Part shown: one piece after another, positions 1 through 6,085 of the stretch
Layout of the letters: the number at the start of each line of letters is the position of its first letter
Numbering within the stretch: the first letter of the stretch is position 1
Source of the DNA: Akkermansiaceae bacterium
GTDB taxonomy: Bacteria > Verrucomicrobiota > Verrucomicrobiia > Verrucomicrobiales > Akkermansiaceae
Length of the DNA stretch: 6,085 bases
Direction of reading: 5' to 3'
NCBI GenBank assembly: GCA_023300205.1
Contig: JALZVD010000216.1
Span: 1 to 6,085, forward strand
Made by a program: the position numbers and the translations under genes
The notes under the pieces: generated by a model
Database searches by the model: none
The model's input: only the letters and a program-made list of their open reading frames with translations
Told to the model about the DNA's origin: nothing

Positions 1-1
1 C

Positions 2-61
2 CACGTCACCAAAGAACGCCTCCGCACCGCCTACAACAACGCCCACCCCCGCGCAAAATAA
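2..61 (+). CDS. C-terminal end of an unrecognised upstream gene (partial)
   Basis: Reading from base 2 gives HVTKERLRTAYNNAHPRAK and then TAA at 59-61. The codons are C-ending (CTC, CGC, ACC, GCC, TAC), like the hsdS and hsdR remnants further on, and the composition is basic and protein-like. The other two forward frames are also open here, so the frame rests on codon style and on the stop falling just before a hairpin. In a type I restriction locus the gene before hsdS is often hsdM or an interposed accessory gene, but 19 residues are too few to assign it and I do not recognise the family. Confidence 0.4.
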   Translation, partial: HVTKERLRTAYNNAHPRAK

Positions 62-68
62 TATGGAG

Positions 69-88
69 CACGGGCGTCCCGCCCTGTG
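69..88 (+). terminator. GC-rich hairpin after the upstream stop codon
   Basis: CACGGGCG (69-76) pairs with CGCCCTGTG (80-88) across a TCC loop, giving eight base pairs with one bulged T at 85. It starts 8 bases after the upstream stop codon, a position that suits a transcription terminator. No T-run follows it, so an intrinsic terminator is not well supported. A dispersed REP-like element or an mRNA-stabilising hairpin would fit equally well. Confidence 0.3.
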
Positions 89-112
89 TCCCCGCCCCCA
101 ACCAAGCCTCTC

Positions 113-238: not shown

Positions 239-355
239 ATGCCCGCTAAAAAGAAAGCCGCTCACATCTTGGGCACCTTGGATGACAAGATTGAATTGAA
301 TCGGCGGATGAATGCGACGCTGGAAGGGATGGCGCAGGCGCTCTTCGAAAGCTAG
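239..355 (+). pseudogene. hsdS: hsdS central-region remnant ending at an in-frame TAG
   Basis: The frame reads MPAKKK and then [18 protein letters not shown], followed by [13 protein letters not shown] and TAG. The segment from [10 protein letters not shown] onward is the classic central conserved region of type I specificity subunits, which links the two target-recognition domains and forms the coiled coil that contacts HsdM. In the family the next residues are a W-F-V-D-F-D-P type run. Here TAG (353-355) replaces the tryptophan TGG, and the same frame continues as FVNFDP and into the ORF at 374. The roughly 150-200 residues of the first recognition domain that should precede this region are missing. 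Upstream DNA is unrelated low-complexity sequence, so the gene is both 5'-truncated and interrupted. The ATG at 239 lacks a clear Shine-Dalgarno sequence. Confidence 0.8.
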
Positions 356-373
356 TTTGTTAACTTTGACCCG

Positions 374-1147
374 ATGATCGACAACGCCCTCTCCGCCGGT
401 AACCCCATCCCCGACGAACTCGCCCCCCGCACCGAAGTCCGCCGCCAAGCCCTCGCCGATGGCACCGCCAACCGCGAAGCCGCCAAACCCTTCCCCGCCG
501 CCTTCCAAGAAACCGAATCCATGGGCTGGATCCCGGAGGGGTGGACGACGGAACCACTAGGAGAGATTGCATCTATTCTGAATGGTTACGCTTTCCAGAG
601 TGGAGACTACACTGACACCGGCATCTTTGTTTTGAGAACAAAGAACTTTGACGCGAACGGGCTCTCATCAAGGAGGAGTGACGACGTTTTTCTTCCTGAT
701 TCATTTGCTGAATCACACAGCGCCTATTTGTCGCAGCCATTCGATTTTCACTTAGTTATGGTTGCCGCCAGTATTAGTAAAACGTCTCTCCTGCTGCCTC
801 ACATGCTCCCCGCACTACGAAATCAGAATATGTGGTGTTTTAGACCAAAAACAACATTCCAAAGCAGGAGTTACCTCAATCTCGCTGTTCAAAAAAAGGT
901 GTCAGAAGTAATGACTTGGGCATCAGGTAGCGCTCGTTCCTTTTTCAGAAAAAGCGATTTTAAGGCCCATGAAATATTGGTCCCCTCAGAAAACTTACTT
1001 ATCGCTTTCGAAGATCAAGTTGGACCGATGTTTCTAGGTATCTCCAATAAATCGGCGGAATCCGAAAACCTAGCAAGTCTCCGCGACACTCTGCTCCCGA
1101 AACTCATCTCCGGCGAACCCCGTATCCCGGACTCTGAAAAACTTTAG
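374..1147 (+). CDS. hsdS: HsdS C-terminal half: second target-recognition domain of a type I R-M specificity subunit
   Basis: HsdS gives type I restriction-modification complexes their DNA sequence specificity. This 257-residue ORF is the surviving downstream part of the interrupted gene, in the same frame as the remnant before the TAG. Residues 1-47 finish the central region. GWIPEGW (51-57) opens the second recognition domain (about 51-225), which contains LNGYAFQSGDY, a VMVAASISKTSLL stretch and NQNMWCFRP. ESENLASLRDTLLPKLISGE (229-248) is the C-terminal conserved helix. A full HsdS has about 400-450 residues and two recognition domains. Natural half-size HsdS proteins can dimerise, so restart at this ATG could give a working half subunit, but no Shine-Dalgarno sequence supports it. 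Codons are C-rich to about base 540, AT-richer through the recognition domain, and C-rich again at the end, which suggests domain exchange. It may be simply dead. Confidence 0.8.
   Translation: MIDNALSAGNPIPDELAPRTEVRRQALADGTANREAAKPFPAAFQETESMGWIPEGWTTEPLGEIASILNGYAFQSGDYTDTGIFVLRTKNFDANGLSSRRSDDVFLPDSFAESHSAYLSQPFDFHLVMVAASISKTSLLLPHMLPALRNQNMWCFRPKTTFQSRSYLNLAVQKKVSEVMTWASGSARSFFRKSDFKAHEILVPSENLLIAFEDQVGPMFLGISNKSAESENLASLRDTLLPKLISGEPRIPDSEKL
1079..1117 (+). repeat. hsdS-tail repeat, left copy
   Basis: These 39 bases encode LRDTLLPKLISGE, the C-terminal conserved motif of HsdS. They match bases 3577-3615 at 31 of 39 positions by hand count. The two copies flank the Septu-like gene pair, together with the hsdR head that precedes the right copy. 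Confidence 0.7.
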
Positions 1148-1162
1148 AATATTGAGCACCTA

Positions 1163-2650
1163 ATGCATCTATCTACATTATCTTTAATCGATGTTCGACA
1201 GTTTGAGGAGCGAGGTTTTGAGTTCGCTCCTGGGTTCAACCTGCTAATCGGCGAGAACGGCCATGGCAAGACAACCATTATTCGTGCATTACTTGCCGCT
1301 GTGGGTGGATCCAACCAAACAGGCCTATATCCGAAGCTCGCGGATGAAGATATTCGACTGAATAAGAAGCAAGCCAAAGTTGAGGCCGAAGTGCTTCAAT
1401 CAGATGGAACCTCAGAGAAATTTCGCTACAAAAAGAGTCTCTGGACGCGTGCATCTCGATCACACACGCGGAACCAGAGGCCTCTTGTGTTAAGCTACGC
1501 ATCCAACGAAGCGACCTGCTCTTCGATGAACTTGAAAGACGTAAAACGAGTCCGAGGGACAAGGGGCAACGATATTCGTAGTTTTGAAGAGTTTCTCTTC
1601 TACGGCGATGAGAGGGAGTCTTTCCAAAGGAGACGCGATCGGTCCTACAGCCGATTCGGAAACAGCCACACGGTACGTAAGTTTGTAGGTAAGGTTCTGT
1701 CAACCTTCTCCCCTGATTTTCAGGATTTCTATTGGCGCTTTGAGCCCTACGATTGCTCTGTTGTGCTTTCTTCGGGCGAATCCAGGGAAGAGGTTTTTGA
1801 TGGCAAAATTGAGAACGTGATTCGATCTGCAGCTTTGCGCCATTTCCAAGAAGATTGGCCTAGAAGACGAAAAATCCCATATGATTGGCCGGATCAAGAG
1901 AAAGTGATTTTATATCCACAGGATGAGGGAAAACGTGGCAGGTATAATCTACCCGATCTCCGTGATATTTGGCAGGGAAAGGAGTCTGGCATCTCGGCAG
2001 ATACTCGGGAGATTTTGCAAGATATGCCTCTAGAGGTGAAATTGACGCCACGAATCATGATCCGTCGGGAGGCAGGTCCCCTTAGCCTTAAGCAACTATC
2101 CGACGGAGAGCAGCGTCTCTTTTCACTCTTTGTCGATATCGCGCGAGAGCTTTCTATTCAGGAGGGATCTGATGGAGGAATCGGAGGCGGTAAAGCCATT
2201 GTGCTTATTGATGAGATTGACGTGCATCTCCATCCAAAGTGGCAGCGGAACATTGTTCCCGCACTGGAAGATCTATTTCCTGATTGTCAGTTCATCGCCA
2301 CCACTCATTCGCCATTTGTGATTCAATCGATGCGTGGCGGAAAATTGATTTCTTTGGATGGAAAAATCGAAGCTGAGTATGCCAACCAAAACATTGAAGA
2401 TGTGGCAGAAGACATCATGGGAATTGAGATACCACAACGTTCCAATCGCTATGTAGAAATGATGAAAATTGCCAGCCGCTACTATCGAGCTCTAAAAAAA
2501 GCGGAACAGGATTCAAATGTTGATGTGGCGGATCTCAAAATGGAGCTGGATGCCATATCCGTGAGGTATTCAAATGATCCATTTTTTGCTGCAAATCTAG
2601 ATTTTCAGTGGGAAACTTTTATTGCCAAAATGGAGATTTCAGAGTCATGA
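1163..2650 (+). CDS. ptuA: Septu-like ABC/AAA-type ATPase (PtuA family)
   Basis: A 495-residue SMC/RecF-like ATPase, the nucleotide-driven partner of the HNH nuclease encoded directly after it. The Walker A motif GENGHGKTT is at 30-38, after the N-terminal strand LLIG. The ABC signature LSDGEQ is at 312-317. Walker B AIVLIDEID is at 345-353, with catalytic E351. A D-loop-like HLHPKW follows, and the switch histidine is H382 in TTHSPFV. All ATPase motifs are intact. No Toprim domain follows, which argues against an OLD-family nuclease such as GajA. Size, motif order and the adjacent HNH gene match the Septu defence system, in which PtuA and PtuB form a complex that degrades DNA on infection. 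It starts 15 bases after the hsdS stop with only a weak GAG as possible ribosome site. The ATG begins a natural MHLSTLSLIDVRQF strand. No retron reverse transcriptase or ncRNA is seen, so this is a stand-alone type. Confidence 0.85.
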   Translation: MHLSTLSLIDVRQFEERGFEFAPGFNLLIGENGHGKTTIIRALLAAVGGSNQTGLYPKLADEDIRLNKKQAKVEAEVLQSDGTSEKFRYKKSLWTRASRSHTRNQRPLVLSYASNEATCSSMNLKDVKRVRGTRGNDIRSFEEFLFYGDERESFQRRRDRSYSRFGNSHTVRKFVGKVLSTFSPDFQDFYWRFEPYDCSVVLSSGESREEVFDGKIENVIRSAALRHFQEDWPRRRKIPYDWPDQEKVILYPQDEGKRGRYNLPDLRDIWQGKESGISADTREILQDMPLEVKLTPRIMIRREAGPLSLKQLSDGEQRLFSLFVDIARELSIQEGSDGGIGGGKAIVLIDEIDVHLHPKWQRNIVPALEDLFPDCQFIATTHSPFVIQSMRGGKLISLDGKIEAEYANQNIEDVAEDIMGIEIPQRSNRYVEMMKIASRYYRALKKAEQDSNVDVADLKMELDAISVRYSNDPFFAANLDFQWETFIAKMEISES

Positions 2651-3348
2651 GGCCGGTAAATAAAGGAGTCGATCAAGGTGCTTTCAACCCTTATCAGGAC
2701 GCGCAACAGCCATTGAAAACACAGCTGGGTGAATTCTGCTCATATTGTGAACGCTGGATCGCGTCAGGTATTCATGTTGAGCATAAATTGCCAAAGGATC
2801 TATACGTCAGTGAAAAGTATAAGTGGACTAATTTCCTCCTCTCTTGCCCAAACTGCAACAGTGGTAAAGGATCTGGTCAGTTAAACCTCGCAGACTACTT
2901 ATGGCCGGACGCTGACAATACCTTTCGTGCATTTACCTATGACGCAGAGGGTCGAGTTACGGTTTCTTCACCGCTCTCAGCGCGAGAAAGCACTCTTGCT
3001 GAATCCACCTGGAAAATGGTTAATCTAAACAAACATCCAGACGTGGATTCCGGATTCGAAGCGCCTACACCAAAGGATGAACGGTGGCTGCACCGCAAAC
3101 AAGCATGGGCAATTGCTAGCAGGCAAAAAGCCAGATTAGATTCTCTATCAAATCATCCCGAGATTGACAGCTTTCGAGAGGATGCAGCGATCATTGCACG
3201 AGAGCGCGGTATGTTTTCTGTTTGGATGTCGGTTTTCGAATCTGACCCAGAGATGAAAGAAATTCTCATCCGAGAATTTGAAGGAACTGCCGCGAATTGC
3301 TTCAATGGCGACGGCGACGCTGTCGCACGTCCAAACGGTCAACTCTAG
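2647..3348 (+). CDS. ptuB: Septu-like HNH endonuclease (PtuB family)
   Basis: The 233-residue product is an HNH nuclease of the PtuB/TIGR02646-like type. It begins MRPVNKG, typical of the family. The zinc-binding pair C31-x2-C34 (FCSYCERW) is followed by EH (45-46) in HVEHKLPKDLY, then the HNH asparagine region WTNFLLSC and the second zinc pair C67-x2-C70 with N71 (CPNCNSGKG). WPDADNTFRAF (86-96) and the C-terminal GTAANCFNGDGDAVARP are also characteristic of the group, so the protein looks full length. The start is set at the ATG overlapping the ATPase stop as ATGA, which implies translational coupling. An in-frame GTG at 2608 would add 13 residues that look like an out-of-frame reading of the ATPase tail. 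It should act with the upstream ATPase as the DNA-cutting effector of Septu. Confidence 0.88.
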   Translation: MRPVNKGVDQGAFNPYQDAQQPLKTQLGEFCSYCERWIASGIHVEHKLPKDLYVSEKYKWTNFLLSCPNCNSGKGSGQLNLADYLWPDADNTFRAFTYDAEGRVTVSSPLSARESTLAESTWKMVNLNKHPDVDSGFEAPTPKDERWLHRKQAWAIASRQKARLDSLSNHPEIDSFREDAAIIARERGMFSVWMSVFESDPEMKEILIREFEGTAANCFNGDGDAVARPNGQL

Positions 3349-3361
3349 AACTCGGACAAAC

Positions 3362-3463
3362 ATGGATACTATAGTTAAGAGACCAAACCGTATCGAACCG
3401 ATTCCCAGAACGAGCTTAGGATCGCTAGAATTCAATGTTGCTCTCTGGGAGGGCAGCGAATGA
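3362..3463 (+). CDS. Possible 33-residue peptide or gene remnant before the hsdR head
   Basis: ATG at 3362 opens a 33-codon frame starting MDTIVKRPNRIEPIPR and ending WEGSE. Its TGA (3461-3463) overlaps the ATG of the hsdR head as ATGA, the coupling also seen at the two well-supported junctions here. No Shine-Dalgarno sequence precedes the ATG and I recognise no family. It could be a small gene, the 3' remnant of a lost gene that once sat upstream of hsdR, or a chance frame. Confidence 0.2.
   Translation: MDTIVKRPNRIEPIPRTSLGSLEFNVALWEGSE
3447..3453 (+). promoter_or_regulatory. Shine-Dalgarno GGGAGGG for the hsdR head
   Basis: GGGAGGG sits 6 bases before the ATG of MKFTEAQLE, close to ideal spacing, and is the best ribosome site in the window. 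It fixes the start of the hsdR-derived ORF at 3460. Through the overlap at 3641 it may also bring ribosomes to the TIR gene. Confidence 0.6.
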
Positions 3464-3576
3464 AATTCACCGAAGCCCAACTCGAATCTGCCATCATCGA
3501 GCTCCTTGGAGCCGAGGGCTATCCGCAAGTGCTGGGCGAAGCGATTGAGCTCCAGCCGAAAGAAATTCTTACCAAA
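3460..3576 (+). repeat. hsdR-head direct repeat, copy A
   Basis: The first 39 codons of hsdR, repeated at 4651-4767 without gaps. By hand count 100 of 117 bases agree, and most differences are at third codon positions. The proteins agree at 33 of 39 residues. This pattern fits two diverged hsdR alleles rather than a recent duplication. Confidence 0.85.
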
Positions 3577-3615
3577 CCCCGCAACACCATCCTCCCGAAA
3601 CTCCTATCCGGTGAA
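3577..3615 (+). repeat. hsdS-tail repeat, right copy
   Basis: Encodes PRNTILPKLLSGE and matches 1079-1117 at 31 of 39 bases, with a run CTCCCGAAACTC identical in both. It begins immediately after the hsdR-head repeat ends, which fixes the chimera junction at about 3576/3577. Confidence 0.7.
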
Positions 3616-3640
3616 ATTGCGGTATGTAACAAAACTTATC

Positions 3641-4624
3641 ATGCCTGAAGAAGCTTACCCTATTTCAATTGACGAACTGGCGGCTACACTCCGAGATCTC
3701 AGTCATCATGGTGCCGACCGGAAGATTCAACAGGTCCTCGAAGAATCTTCTTGGAGTCTCCCCTTTGTCCATGCGGATGACTGGAATGGAGGAACAGATT
3801 ACTTCCTTCTCAACCTTGCCGTGCCCACTGCGCTGTTCGCGGCAATCAGGGAATCGAAAGAAGATGCGGAAAACGAGATACTCGGGATGGCGGGTGACAT
3901 CGACGCTGCCTACGATAACCACACTATCTCTAGAGTTCTGCTAACTCCAAAATTGGGAACGCTGCCTCCAAAAGGAAACTTACCGGCGGGAGTTGTCCGT
4001 GAGATCTGGGAGGAAGGCCATTTCAAGCTCTTCTTAAGCCATCTGGCGACCAATAAGGAGAACGTCCACAATCTTAAATATGCTCTGAAATGCTATGGGA
4101 TTGATTGCTTTGTAGCGCACGACGATATTACCCCAAGTCGTGAATGGCAGGAGCAAATTGAAAATGCCCTTCGGAGCATGGATGCATTAGTTGCGTTAGT
4201 TGAGCCAGATTTCATTAGGAGCCAATGGTGCGATCAAGAAGTTGGTTGGGCGCTCGGTAGAGGGCTCCAAGTGATAGGTGTCCGACTCAACGCAAATCCA
4301 CATGGATTCATCGGGAAATTCCAAGGAGTTTCAGGAAGCCTCGAATACCCAAAACCTCTGGCCAAAAGTATCTTCGAAGCCCTTAAAACACAGCCGACTC
4401 ATCGAACCAGGCTAAATCAGGGTCTCGCCTACGCATTACTCAACTCGAAATCATTCTCTGACTCTATCGCTTTGAGTAAAATCATTGAACTTTGCAATGA
4501 CTTCACGCCCGCAGATAAGCAGATTCTCTGGGAAGCCTGTCGCACCAATAACCAAGTCTACCAAGCTCATAAAGTCACTGAGAAGGTTTATGGTCTCATA
4601 GGAGAGCCACCAGTGCCAGCCTAG
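3641..4624 (+). CDS. TIR-domain defence protein with unassigned N-terminal domain
   Basis: The 327-residue product has three parts. Residues 1-122 are an N-terminal region I cannot assign, with HADDWNGGTDYFLLNLAVP at 44-62. Residues about 126-250 form a TIR domain: FKLFLSH (128-134) is the first strand and box 1, DCFVAHDDITPSREW (155-169) the second strand and BB loop, ALVALVEPDF the next strand, and SQWCDQEVGWALGRG (194-208) carries E200, which aligns with the catalytic glutamate of TIR NADases. The remaining 75 residues are a mostly helical tail. Bacterial TIR proteins commonly destroy NAD or make cyclic ADP-ribose-type signals on infection. Here the catalytic site looks intact, so an NAD-consuming effector is a reasonable inference. 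I chose ATG 3641, which overlaps the chimera stop (3646-3648). An upstream in-frame ATG at 3506 would translate hsdR/hsdS DNA out of frame. No Shine-Dalgarno sequence is visible, so coupled translation is likely. There are no membrane segments. Confidence 0.8.
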   Translation: MPEEAYPISIDELAATLRDLSHHGADRKIQQVLEESSWSLPFVHADDWNGGTDYFLLNLAVPTALFAAIRESKEDAENEILGMAGDIDAAYDNHTISRVLLTPKLGTLPPKGNLPAGVVREIWEEGHFKLFLSHLATNKENVHNLKYALKCYGIDCFVAHDDITPSREWQEQIENALRSMDALVALVEPDFIRSQWCDQEVGWALGRGLQVIGVRLNANPHGFIGKFQGVSGSLEYPKPLAKSIFEALKTQPTHRTRLNQGLAYALLNSKSFSDSIALSKIIELCNDFTPADKQILWEACRTNNQVYQAHKVTEKVYGLIGEPPVPA

Positions 4625-4627
4625 GGA
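4623..4627 (+). promoter_or_regulatory. Shine-Dalgarno AGGGA for the second hsdR fragment
   Basis: AGGGA starts in the TIR stop codon and lies 8 bases before the ATG at 4636. The next in-frame ATG (4651, the family's usual MKFTEAQ start) has no such site at normal distance. Translation therefore probably starts at 4636 and adds MQHAK. Confidence 0.4.
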
Positions 4628-4650
4628 ACTCACTAATGCAACATGCTAAA

Positions 4651-4767
4651 ATGAAATTCACCGAAGCCCAACTCGAATCAGCGATCATCGAACTCCTCGG
4701 AGTCGAGGGCTATCCGCACGTGTTGGGCGAGGCGATTGAGCGTCAGCCGCAGGAGGTGCTCATCAAA
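4651..4767 (+). repeat. hsdR-head direct repeat, copy B
   Basis: Partner of the copy at 3460-3576. Beyond codon 39 this copy continues as genuine HsdR (ADLRAFLAKRY), whereas the other jumps to HsdS sequence, so this is the less rearranged copy. The two copies bracket the TIR gene. Confidence 0.85.
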
Positions 4768-5067
4768 GCCGACCTGCGCGCCTTCCTGGCCAAGCGATAC
4801 GCCGCCGACCACATCACACCGCAGGAAATCGAGGCGGTGATCAAGCAGCTCGAAGCCTACTCCGCCGCCGATCTCTACGAGAGCAACAAGGCGGTCATGA
4901 AGCTGATCTCGGATGGCTTTCTGCTGAAGCGGGAAGACCGCAGCCAGAAGGATCTGTATATCCAGTTGATCGATTACTCGGAGCTGGTGGCGTTTCGGGA
5001 ACCGAATCCCGGCGAAGTGCCGTCCATGGTCGGGCTTCTCGAAGCCGAGGCCTGCCCGCATGTGATT

Positions 5068-5110
5068 GTAGGAGTCGCCTACACCCTTCAGGCGAGCCTG
5101 AAGGGTGTGG
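5068..5110. repeat. REP-like palindromic element with GTAG head
   Basis: GTAG at 5068-5071 is followed by a perfect 13-base inverted repeat: ACACCCTTCAGGC (5081-5093) and GCCTGAAGGGTGT (5096-5108), separated by only two bases. A GTAG-type tetranucleotide at the foot of a hairpin is the layout of REP sequences mobilised by RAYT (REP-associated tyrosine) transposases. No RAYT gene is in the window. It lies about 36 bases after HsdR similarity ends, inside the read-through tail of the fragment, so its insertion or a deletion beside it may have caused the truncation. There is no T-run after it, so it is not a clear intrinsic terminator. Confidence 0.6.
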
Positions 5111-5155
5111 ACATCACCACAAACTGTCAAGCGGTTCCTGACTCGTTCGAAATTC

Positions 5156-5183
5156 TTCACAAAAAGACCCTTCAATTTGTGAA
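5156..5183. promoter_or_regulatory. Inverted repeat upstream of abiEi, possible operator
   Basis: TTCACAAA (5156-5163) and TTTGTGAA (5176-5183) form a perfect 8-base inverted repeat with 12 bases between, ending 21 bases before the abiEi start. AbiEi antitoxins are known to repress their own operon by binding inverted repeats ahead of it, so this is a plausible operator. The A-run after the right arm rules out an intrinsic terminator on the + strand, and I cannot place a convincing -35/-10 pair. Confidence 0.35.
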
Positions 5184-5204
5184 AAAAAACATTAAGCAAT
5201 AGAC

Positions 5205-5816
5205 GTGCAATCCATTGAAAATAAAACCTCTTCGAGGATTTACGGCAACCAGAGGGGTTGGGCGTTTTCCAAGATCGATTTTTTGGATTTGGGGAGTGAT
5301 GCTGACATCCGAAAAGCGCTCTCTGAATTGGCAGCAAAAGGAACCATCCGTCGGGTCTTACGAGGGATCTATGACTACCCTCGAATCAGCAAGCTTCTCA
5401 CTACCGAGATCGGACCTGATCTGGATCAACTGGCACGCGCCTTGGCCCGTAAATCCGCTTGGCGGATTCAGCCCTCAGAAAATACCGCGCTCAACTTCTT
5501 AGGTCTCTCCACCCAAGTCCCCGCGCAGACCGTCTACCTTTCCGATGGCCCAAGCAAAACGTATGAGATCGGCAAGCAAGAGCTTGTCTTTAAGAAAAGA
5601 ACGCTCAAAGAATCGGTTTTCAAACACAAGGAAAGTGAACTTGTGGTGCAAGCCCTGAAGGCCTTGGGGCAAGAACGAGTTGATGCAGAAATCCTCCAAA
5701 AACTTGCCGGCACCTGGACGCCAAGTATTTGGAAAAAAATTCTCCGCGACACCAAAACCGCCCCGGCTTGGGTCAGTGACCTGATCCGCAACATTTCAAT
5801 GCGCTCTGATTCATGA
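5205..5816 (+). CDS. abiEi: AbiEi-family antitoxin (DUF6088-like) of a type IV toxin-antitoxin system
   Basis: The 203-residue protein opens MQSIENKTSSRIYGNQRGWAF, the usual start of the DUF6088/AbiEi group. Residues 5-60 form the winged-helix DNA-binding domain: a KIDFLDLG helix, then DIRKALSELAAKGTIRRVLRGIYDYP as recognition helix and wing. The rest (NTALNFLGLSTQVPAQTVYLSDGPSKT at 93-119, then a lysine-rich strand and a helical end) matches the antitoxin C-terminal domain. The start is GTG, chosen because the family begins exactly there. No Shine-Dalgarno sequence is seen, and the preceding stop is two bases upstream. The role is to repress its own operon and neutralise the AbiEii toxin without a stable complex, as known for type IV systems. 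It overlaps abiEii by ATGA. The length is normal and nothing looks broken. Confidence 0.88.
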   Translation: MQSIENKTSSRIYGNQRGWAFSKIDFLDLGSDADIRKALSELAAKGTIRRVLRGIYDYPRISKLLTTEIGPDLDQLARALARKSAWRIQPSENTALNFLGLSTQVPAQTVYLSDGPSKTYEIGKQELVFKKRTLKESVFKHKESELVVQALKALGQERVDAEILQKLAGTWTPSIWKKILRDTKTAPAWVSDLIRNISMRSDS

Positions 5817-6085
5817 ACGGTATCGCGACTTTATCCGAGAAGGAGCGGAACGAACTTTTCACGCTCACGGCCCAACAACGCGGCATCGGCTCGATCGCGA
5901 TCATTGAAAAAGACTTCTGGGTCTGCTGGACGCTGAAGCAGCTTTTTGAACATCCTGAACTCTCCAAGCAACTCATCTTCAAAGGCGGCACCAGCCTCTC
6001 GAAAGTCTATGGACTCATCAATCGCTTTTCAGAAGACGTCGACCTCGTTCTGGATTGGAGAGAGGTCAACCAGGCTGAAGACCCG
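5813..6085 (+). CDS. abiEii: AbiEii-family nucleotidyltransferase toxin (3' end outside window)
   Basis: The first 91 codons are present and open to the window edge. The protein shows the nucleotidyltransferase core: KGGTSLSKVYGLI (57-69), with the GGTSLSK motif at 58-64, and RFSEDVDL (71-78), whose D75 and D77 are the expected metal-binding acids. The N-terminal helix includes EKDFWVCWTLKQLF, also family-typical. AbiEii toxins are DNA polymerase beta-like nucleotidyltransferases, related to MenT enzymes that add nucleotides to tRNA ends, and they arrest growth. The ATG overlaps the antitoxin stop as ATGA, so toxin output depends on antitoxin translation. The catalytic motifs visible here are intact, but the second half cannot be judged. 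Confidence 0.88.
   Translation, partial: MNGIATLSEKERNELFTLTAQQRGIGSIAIIEKDFWVCWTLKQLFEHPELSKQLIFKGGTSLSKVYGLINRFSEDVDLVLDWREVNQAEDP

Follow-up and report, generated by a model that had tools for sequence, protein, structure and literature searches.

The window analysed here, a stretch of 6,085 nucleotides from an Akkermansiaceae bacterium (GCA_023300205.1, JALZVD010000216.1), carries three predicted defence cargoes, a Septu pair, a gene for a TIR-domain protein and an AbiE pair, set in what appears to be an old type I restriction locus with scars of the hsd genes between them. From comparison with related loci, we consider it probable that the later cargoes were each added as a unit of cargo plus hsdR 5′ end, which would have recombined into the 5′ end of the resident hsdR. 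The window is the whole of contig C216 (6,085/6,085 bases) in a metagenome-assembled genome (MAG) of 2.47 Mb, 388 contigs and 83% completeness, and because it is the entire contig, no intact hsdR is visible. Just beyond the right end of the contig we would expect hsdR, whether intact or shortened further, as is found after AbiEii in the related loci L018 and L022.

The hsd pieces of the window all lie on the plus strand and frame the cargo genes, which are on the same strand between hsdS and hsdR. At the left, an hsdS remnant (264..1147) consists of the central region, an in-frame TAG at 353-355 and an open reading frame (ORF) at 374-1147 that corresponds to the C-terminal half and matches Specificity_I in PADLOC (E 4e-38). 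The N-terminal half of this hsdS is missing, and the remaining middle comes after a bit resembling an hsdM start at 240-261. The remnant closes with hsdS tail 1 (LASLRDTLLPKLISGEPRIP; 1070..1129), which scores 42.0 bits with a hidden Markov model (HMM) of the tail. Beyond the Septu pair lies an hsdR head scrap of codons 1-39 (3460..3576; head HMM 64.2 bits; tblastn E 6e-14), to which a second hsdS tail is fused in frame (3568..3624; tail HMM 24.8 bits; E 0.002). The resulting chimeric mini-ORF (3460-3648) terminates within the start of the TIR gene, and its end alone matches six Specificity_I models of PADLOC (3e-4 to 8e-4). Following the TIR gene is a second hsdR head of codons 1-127 (4651..5031), whose match is lost at about 5031; the ORF at 4636-5199 is called a type I restriction endonuclease by PADLOC (2.2e-23) and HSDR_N by Pfam. 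Both kinds of piece are also evident as DNA repeats, with the hsdS tail repeated at 1064-1117 and 3562-3615 (54 nt, 72% identity; blastn E 7e-4 for a 37-nt core) and the hsdR head at 3459-3579 and 4650-4770 (121 nt, 85% identity; blastn E 8e-35). No surrounding hsd gene is intact in the window, hsdS being halved and hsdR present as heads only. Where the second head stops matching, 41 nt at 5024-5064 are 75% like an hsdR head (E 0.03, a weak match) and are a possible third scrap. A 33-codon ORF at 3362-3463, which ends overlapping the ATG of the first head (ATGA), was considered as a fragment of another cargo and rejected, having no above-chance match in the six-frame set of fetched loci.

The first cargo is a PtuA ATPase gene (1163..2650; PADLOC PtuA 1.8e-64) directly beside a PtuB HNH nuclease gene (2647..3348; PADLOC PtuB 7.5e-75; Pfam HNH), the pairing by which Septu is recognized. 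The second, at 3641..4624, encodes a TIR-domain protein of 327 aa (Pfam TIR_2 1.6e-15) with 469 homologues. In Thoeris, a TIR gene is paired with ThsA; no ThsA match was obtained among the eight window proteins scanned, and the TIR protein gives weak ThsB matches only. An AbiE unit fills the window from 5082 to 6085, with AbiEi (DUF6088; 5205..5816; PADLOC 8e-62, Pfam 4e-38) adjoining AbiEii (5813..6085; PADLOC 3e-36), the latter cut by the contig end. All of these genes are on the plus strand. The Septu and TIR proteins look like ordinary members of their families, and it is the arrangement that is novel. An earlier note, made from the sequence of the window by itself, had put the hsd pieces, the Septu pair and the TIR gene at these places and described the restriction genes as debris around intact cargo; the repeats and the PADLOC and Pfam matches agree with this, and the cargo reading frames are open.

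To place this arrangement among its relatives, we used the best 80 of 160 stretches from GTDB species genomes, fetched by the second hsdR head with flanks of up to 10 kb. An hsdR frame of at least 400 codons is present in 71 of the 80 and absent in nine, and hsdS is visible in 67; for the other 13, the gap comprises all sequence left of hsdR. The distance from hsdS to hsdR is at least 681 bp in 48 of the 67 loci and at most 145 bp in the other 19, mostly -4 to 24 bp. The distance from hsdM to hsdS, measured in 59 loci, is at most 59 bp in 46 and at least 158 bp in 13. Thus, cargo is favoured between hsdS and hsdR, and the view of this gap as a site for defence genes, put forward in the earlier note, is borne out. 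Genes from the gaps that were chosen for family scans include RhuM, Schlafen/AlbA_2, Fic, SIR2, prokaryotic Argonaute, FRG-domain, AAA ATPase and reverse transcriptase genes; the scans covered these chosen genes rather than every gap gene.

Single-cargo versions of the window's arrangement, which the same note had proposed to look for, were found for Septu and in part for TIR. Septu is the sole cargo of the gap in L013. L139, a type I locus from a different family, has a TIR relative (34% identity) directly after hsdS; the HsdR-like start after it has a broken frame and is a weak call (E 0.007, unlisted in another search at 0.01). Septu and TIR genes adjacent to each other and free of hsd scraps, the finding that the note held would speak against it, did not occur in the fetched loci. 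However, two of the three other TIR relatives from a scan of the phylum, L140 and L141, lack hsd genes within about 6 kb; these two and L138 from a family scan have no hsd genes in 14-17 kb of sequence, nor does L137 in its 4.7-kb contig. The phylum scan covered 387 genomes, 29 of them matching (G000 included), and is not independent of the 80 loci because at least two species are common to both (G240 = L009, G336 = L012). An AbiE pair of the window's type occurs in L024 at 13369-14978, downstream of an intact hsdR rather than upstream.

A truncated hsdR head lies upstream of hsdR, always on the hsdR strand, in 15 of the 80 loci (L007-L011, L018, L022, L036, L039, L042, L045, L047, L052, L073, L077). 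In 14 of these, hsdS is visible to the left of the scrap, the exception being L042, which begins inside the gap. The search covered 171,020 bases in the zone upstream of hsdR and 825,116 elsewhere, and outside the gap it yielded no genuine scrap. One match was listed there, in L082, but it is an hsdR C-terminus that arose from a seed error, since five of the 69 seeds of the head HMM were hsdR C-termini by mistake and gave matches to hsdR tails. Controls with protein slices and tblastn are independent of this HMM; the L077 scrap of 15 codons was called by the HMM alone. Scars are also present in records not labelled as MAGs, namely Roseibacillus persicicus (L009) and Kiritimatiellaeota B1221 (L036). 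Among the scarred loci, the hsdR of L018 is broken by frame changes and that of L039 is cut by the contig end.

For the slice control, 60-codon slices from 55 HsdR proteins of at least 1,000 aa were searched against 63 sequences. Eight over-long HsdR frames (L007, L013, L015, L023, L025, L036, L054, L062) were left out of the slices, and likewise of the queries in the search that gave the L026 and L031 remnants described below. Slices of codons 1-60 match 15 of the 63 sequences, comprising 14 scarred loci and the window, with L077 missed. Codons 61-120 match five sequences, codons 121-180 and 181-240 match L011 alone, and slices further on match nothing except L043 at 3017-3193, within a 1,039-aa ORF. 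When the gaps with visible hsdS were searched with 71 HsdR, 64 HsdS and 56 HsdM whole-protein queries, hsdR heads and hsdS tails were recovered and no HsdM piece. The remaining matches came from long HsdR frames containing an insert (L011, L016, L073), and the insert match in L011 is the ORF of an IS200-like Y1 transposase in the gap (Pfam).

The phylum scan yielded a further scarred locus, L125. There, hsdS is followed in order by an ORF of 1,223 aa that contains a reverse-transcriptase domain, by codons 1-22 of hsdR as a scrap, by four more ORFs and by an hsdR start with a frame of 272 codons that stops close to the contig end. Lone hsdR heads were also seen in L117 (codons 1-204, with stops), L119 (codons 1-28) and L122 (codons 4-47), with no intact hsdR in the fetched stretch; these are possible landmarks of lost loci.

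The joints beside the scraps take several forms. Direct in-frame fusions of an hsdR head to an hsdS tail are present in the window (codon 39), L007 (codon ~134) and L011 (codon 197). A longer joint occurs in L026, where hsdR codons 1-253 are followed by about 160 bp of other sequence and hsdS codons 207-451, and L008 has a separate hsdS tail and hsdR head within one gap. L007, L011 and L026 supply the further chimeras of hsdR head and hsdS tail that the earlier note had called for. Its suggestion that two type I loci were joined end to end fared less well as a general rule, since in 13 of the 16 scraps measured (15 loci plus the window) no fused hsdS tail was found; within this sample, joining of whole loci is not how such structures usually arise. 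The window's switch from head to tail lies in codons reading LIK in the second hsdR copy and LTK in many hsdS tails, which would fit a short-homology join without proving one. In L009, L018, L036, L047, L052 and L073, the left cargo overlaps the ATG of the scrap by 4 nt, as would be expected of a seamless operon that preceded a later insertion.

The clearest indication of how a scar forms comes from L011, on a contig of 346 kb. At the DNA level, the scrap (codons 1-197) shares 91% identity with L013 and 53% with the intact head beside it in L011. Compared with L013, that intact hsdR shows 66% identity over codons 1-197 and 88% from codon 300 on. This discordance between head and body (0.213) is the largest of 64 loci (median 0.052), and the breakpoint was placed at codon 204 (t 11.7; 0/500 block permutations in a scan of 15 loci), seven codons from the end of the scrap. 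Read most simply, a unit made up of an hsdS tail, cargo and a foreign hsdR 5′ end would have broken into a resident hsdR near codon 200, with its right side recombining into the resident gene. In the unscarred L012, a switch lies at codon 55 (0/500), as a clean swap would give. More generally, the intact head of the same locus is not the closest allele for 11 of the 16 scraps, clearly so in L009, L011, L022, L039 and L042 (rank 8 to 63). Simple local duplication of the hsdR head is therefore rejected as a general cause; it is possible in L007, L036, L047, L052 and L073, where the own head ranks first with identity of 0.87-1.00.

In the mechanism that we favour, one side of each insertion would be anchored by homologous exchange inside hsdR. 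The other side would be closed by an illegitimate join of the microhomology type, and the previous hsdR head would survive there as a scrap, in some cases fused to the hsdS tail brought in by the new unit. With every addition a full hsdR start would be restored on the right of the added cargo, so that the next unit could land there. In the window, the bodies of hsdM, hsdS and hsdR would have been lost afterwards, with the cargo frames remaining open. From 5082 on, the window's AbiE unit shares 90% identity with that of L022 over 1,006 bp and 76% with that of L018 over 998 bp, and those units also have an hsdR scrap on the left. The cargo to the left of scrap and AbiE differs among the three, being TIR in the window, AAA_13/PDC-S06 in L022 and RhuM/PDC-S05 in L018. 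This pattern is consistent with the scrap having served as an arm for exchange of the left cargo, and independent insertions are a possible alternative. The idea of the earlier note that conserved hsd ends act as homology arms gains support for the hsdR 5′ end, from one locus (L011), and not for the hsdS tails.

Several results weigh against insertion by hsdR exchange. A clear breakpoint at the scar was obtained in L011 only, one of the seven scarred loci tested; homologous exchange beside the insert is clear there and not in the other six. L007 is weak at its scar (38/2,000) and has a strong switch elsewhere, at codon 282 (1/500), and L008, L009, L010 and L022 show no significant switch at their scars. 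L042, considered as a second mosaic, was downgraded to suggestive, its split at codon 76 (2/2,000; scan 22/500) being confounded by the unscarred outgroups L016, L017 and L021, which dip there too. The nearest foreign head is barely closer than the own head in L008, L010, L018 and the window, and the window has no intact hsdR in which an allele switch could be sought. Additionally, hsdR genes with internal deletions and both ends kept were found in L118 (7886-8099, codons 1-52 joined to codons 1057-1076) and L031 (codons 1-181 joined to codons 711-1092), so plain deletion can also make short heads. As for before-and-after pairs, none was seen for the immigration-control type I locus of E. coli (L133; matches in 862 of 5,426 genomes) among the 40 of 862 matches listed. 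Of these 40, 39 cover both hsdS and hsdR, two of them carrying an IS1 element and the others close to the query in length, and one holds hsdS only. Eight plasmid records matched, none in two places.

Because such internal deletions of hsdR exist, the main rival explanation is that complete type I loci stood in tandem and that later deletions removed the bodies of hsdR, hsdM and hsdS, the ends being left by selection for the adjoining cargo. The joints of hsdR head to hsdS tail speak for it, and L026 has kept the long remnants of both genes given above. We regard it nonetheless as rather unlikely. It does not by itself account for the 13 of 16 scraps in which no fused hsdS tail was found, and no hsdM piece was found in the searched gaps with visible hsdS. 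All 16 scraps, 15 to 197 codons long, end by codon 197 of about 1,070, for which we calculate odds of about 2e-12 if single deletions had evenly distributed ends; this set does not include L026, which reaches codon 253, and scraps would become shorter under repeated deletions. The scrap start overlaps the hsdS stop in L039 and L045, indicating that the cargo entered hsdR itself, and the allele switch at the L011 scar also speaks against a history of deletion.

Alternatively, the short hsdR-head ORFs could have been kept as functional leader or coupling cistrons that pass ribosomes between cargoes. The mini-ORF of the window, stopping inside the TIR start, and the three direct joints, all in frame, are in keeping with this. 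It is improbable given that the L047 scrap has a stop at codon 10, that the scrap frames of L022, L045 and L052 end 66 to 179 bp before the next ORF, and that scrap lengths range so widely. Still less credible is insertion of cargo at the hsdR start by a transposon or a site-specific recombinase. The transposase in the L011 gap would suit such a route, but no recombinase was found among the eight window proteins scanned, and with scrap ends spread over codons 15 to 197, no fixed core is seen. An assembly artefact of a MAG this fragmented and incomplete, with a contig end common to contig C316, is very improbable, as the same kind of structure occurs in L009 and L036 and on the 346-kb contig of L011.

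The left end of the window recurs in that second contig of the same MAG. Bases 1..95, on the plus strand, match the end of C316 with 0 mismatches, and over 1-261 the two are 83% alike. The scrap like an hsdM start (MPAKKKAA; 240..261, plus strand), which runs into the middle of hsdS, is too short for a score of its own; its counterpart in C316 runs on into an HsdM N-terminus (tblastn E 3e-4). Locus L004, on C316, reads on the reverse strand from 7114 as window bases 1-95 and then a broken hsdM head of about 35 codons, followed by an SMC/LmuB-like ATPase, a 555-aa protein with a weak PDC-S05 match and a 618-aa protein without matches. L004 is perhaps a second version of the window locus, differently filled. 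Short palindromic or repeated intergenic sequences lie at or near several joints (window 60-95 and 5081-5108; L018 ~4218-4290; L026 ~10840-11000).

Payne and colleagues have reportedly worked on embedded defence, and cargo in the gap between hsdS and hsdR is already known. DarTG2 lies between hsdS and hsdR in enteropathogenic E. coli, and four genomes have another pair there, the site being called a 'potential recombination hotspot' (PMC12255303). The tgvAB genes of V. cholerae pathogenicity island VPI-2 are likewise inside a type I operon, between hsdS and hsdR (PMC11411939), and prrC is inside EcoprrI (PMC3874165). In all three, as in the window, cargo sits inside a type I operon. The passages describing them concern single insertions and make no mention of hsdR-head or hsdS-tail scars, stacked cargo or a mosaic hsdR. 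For the immunity arrays of the type VI secretion system in Vibrio cholerae, homology-facilitated illegitimate recombination has been proposed (PMC5361080). In the account given there, new modules recombine into a conserved locus, old ones are displaced but kept, and remnants record the order, much as proposed here. The genes differ, however, and the anchor of those arrays is upstream with old genes shifted downstream, whereas in the present loci it is the hsdR side that stays constant, with the older cargo upstream. Integron cassette arrays, to which the same paper compares them, share serial addition at a fixed side; unlike in integrons, the eight window proteins scanned include no integrase, and a fixed attachment core is not seen here. 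In the literature searched (titles and the starts of abstracts, with preprints and most subscription papers outside it), no description of hsdR-head scars was found. Judged by that literature, the scars, the stacking order and the mosaic hsdR look new.

These scars bear on how defence islands grow without an integrase. We suggest, tentatively, that the hsdR 5′ end may be an integrase-free landing pad, at which units of cargo plus hsdR head insert, rebuild the site and leave scars. Type I loci may then be ratchets that accumulate and exchange defence genes across phyla, with the order of acquisition readable. If hsdR heads do mark each addition, the scars would show in what order cargo was acquired and in which direction the locus grew, and the crossover point could be read from a mosaic hsdR. 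If true, this would also provide a search rule, by which genes flanked by an hsdS tail and an hsdR head, whether intact or scrap, would all be candidates for defence.

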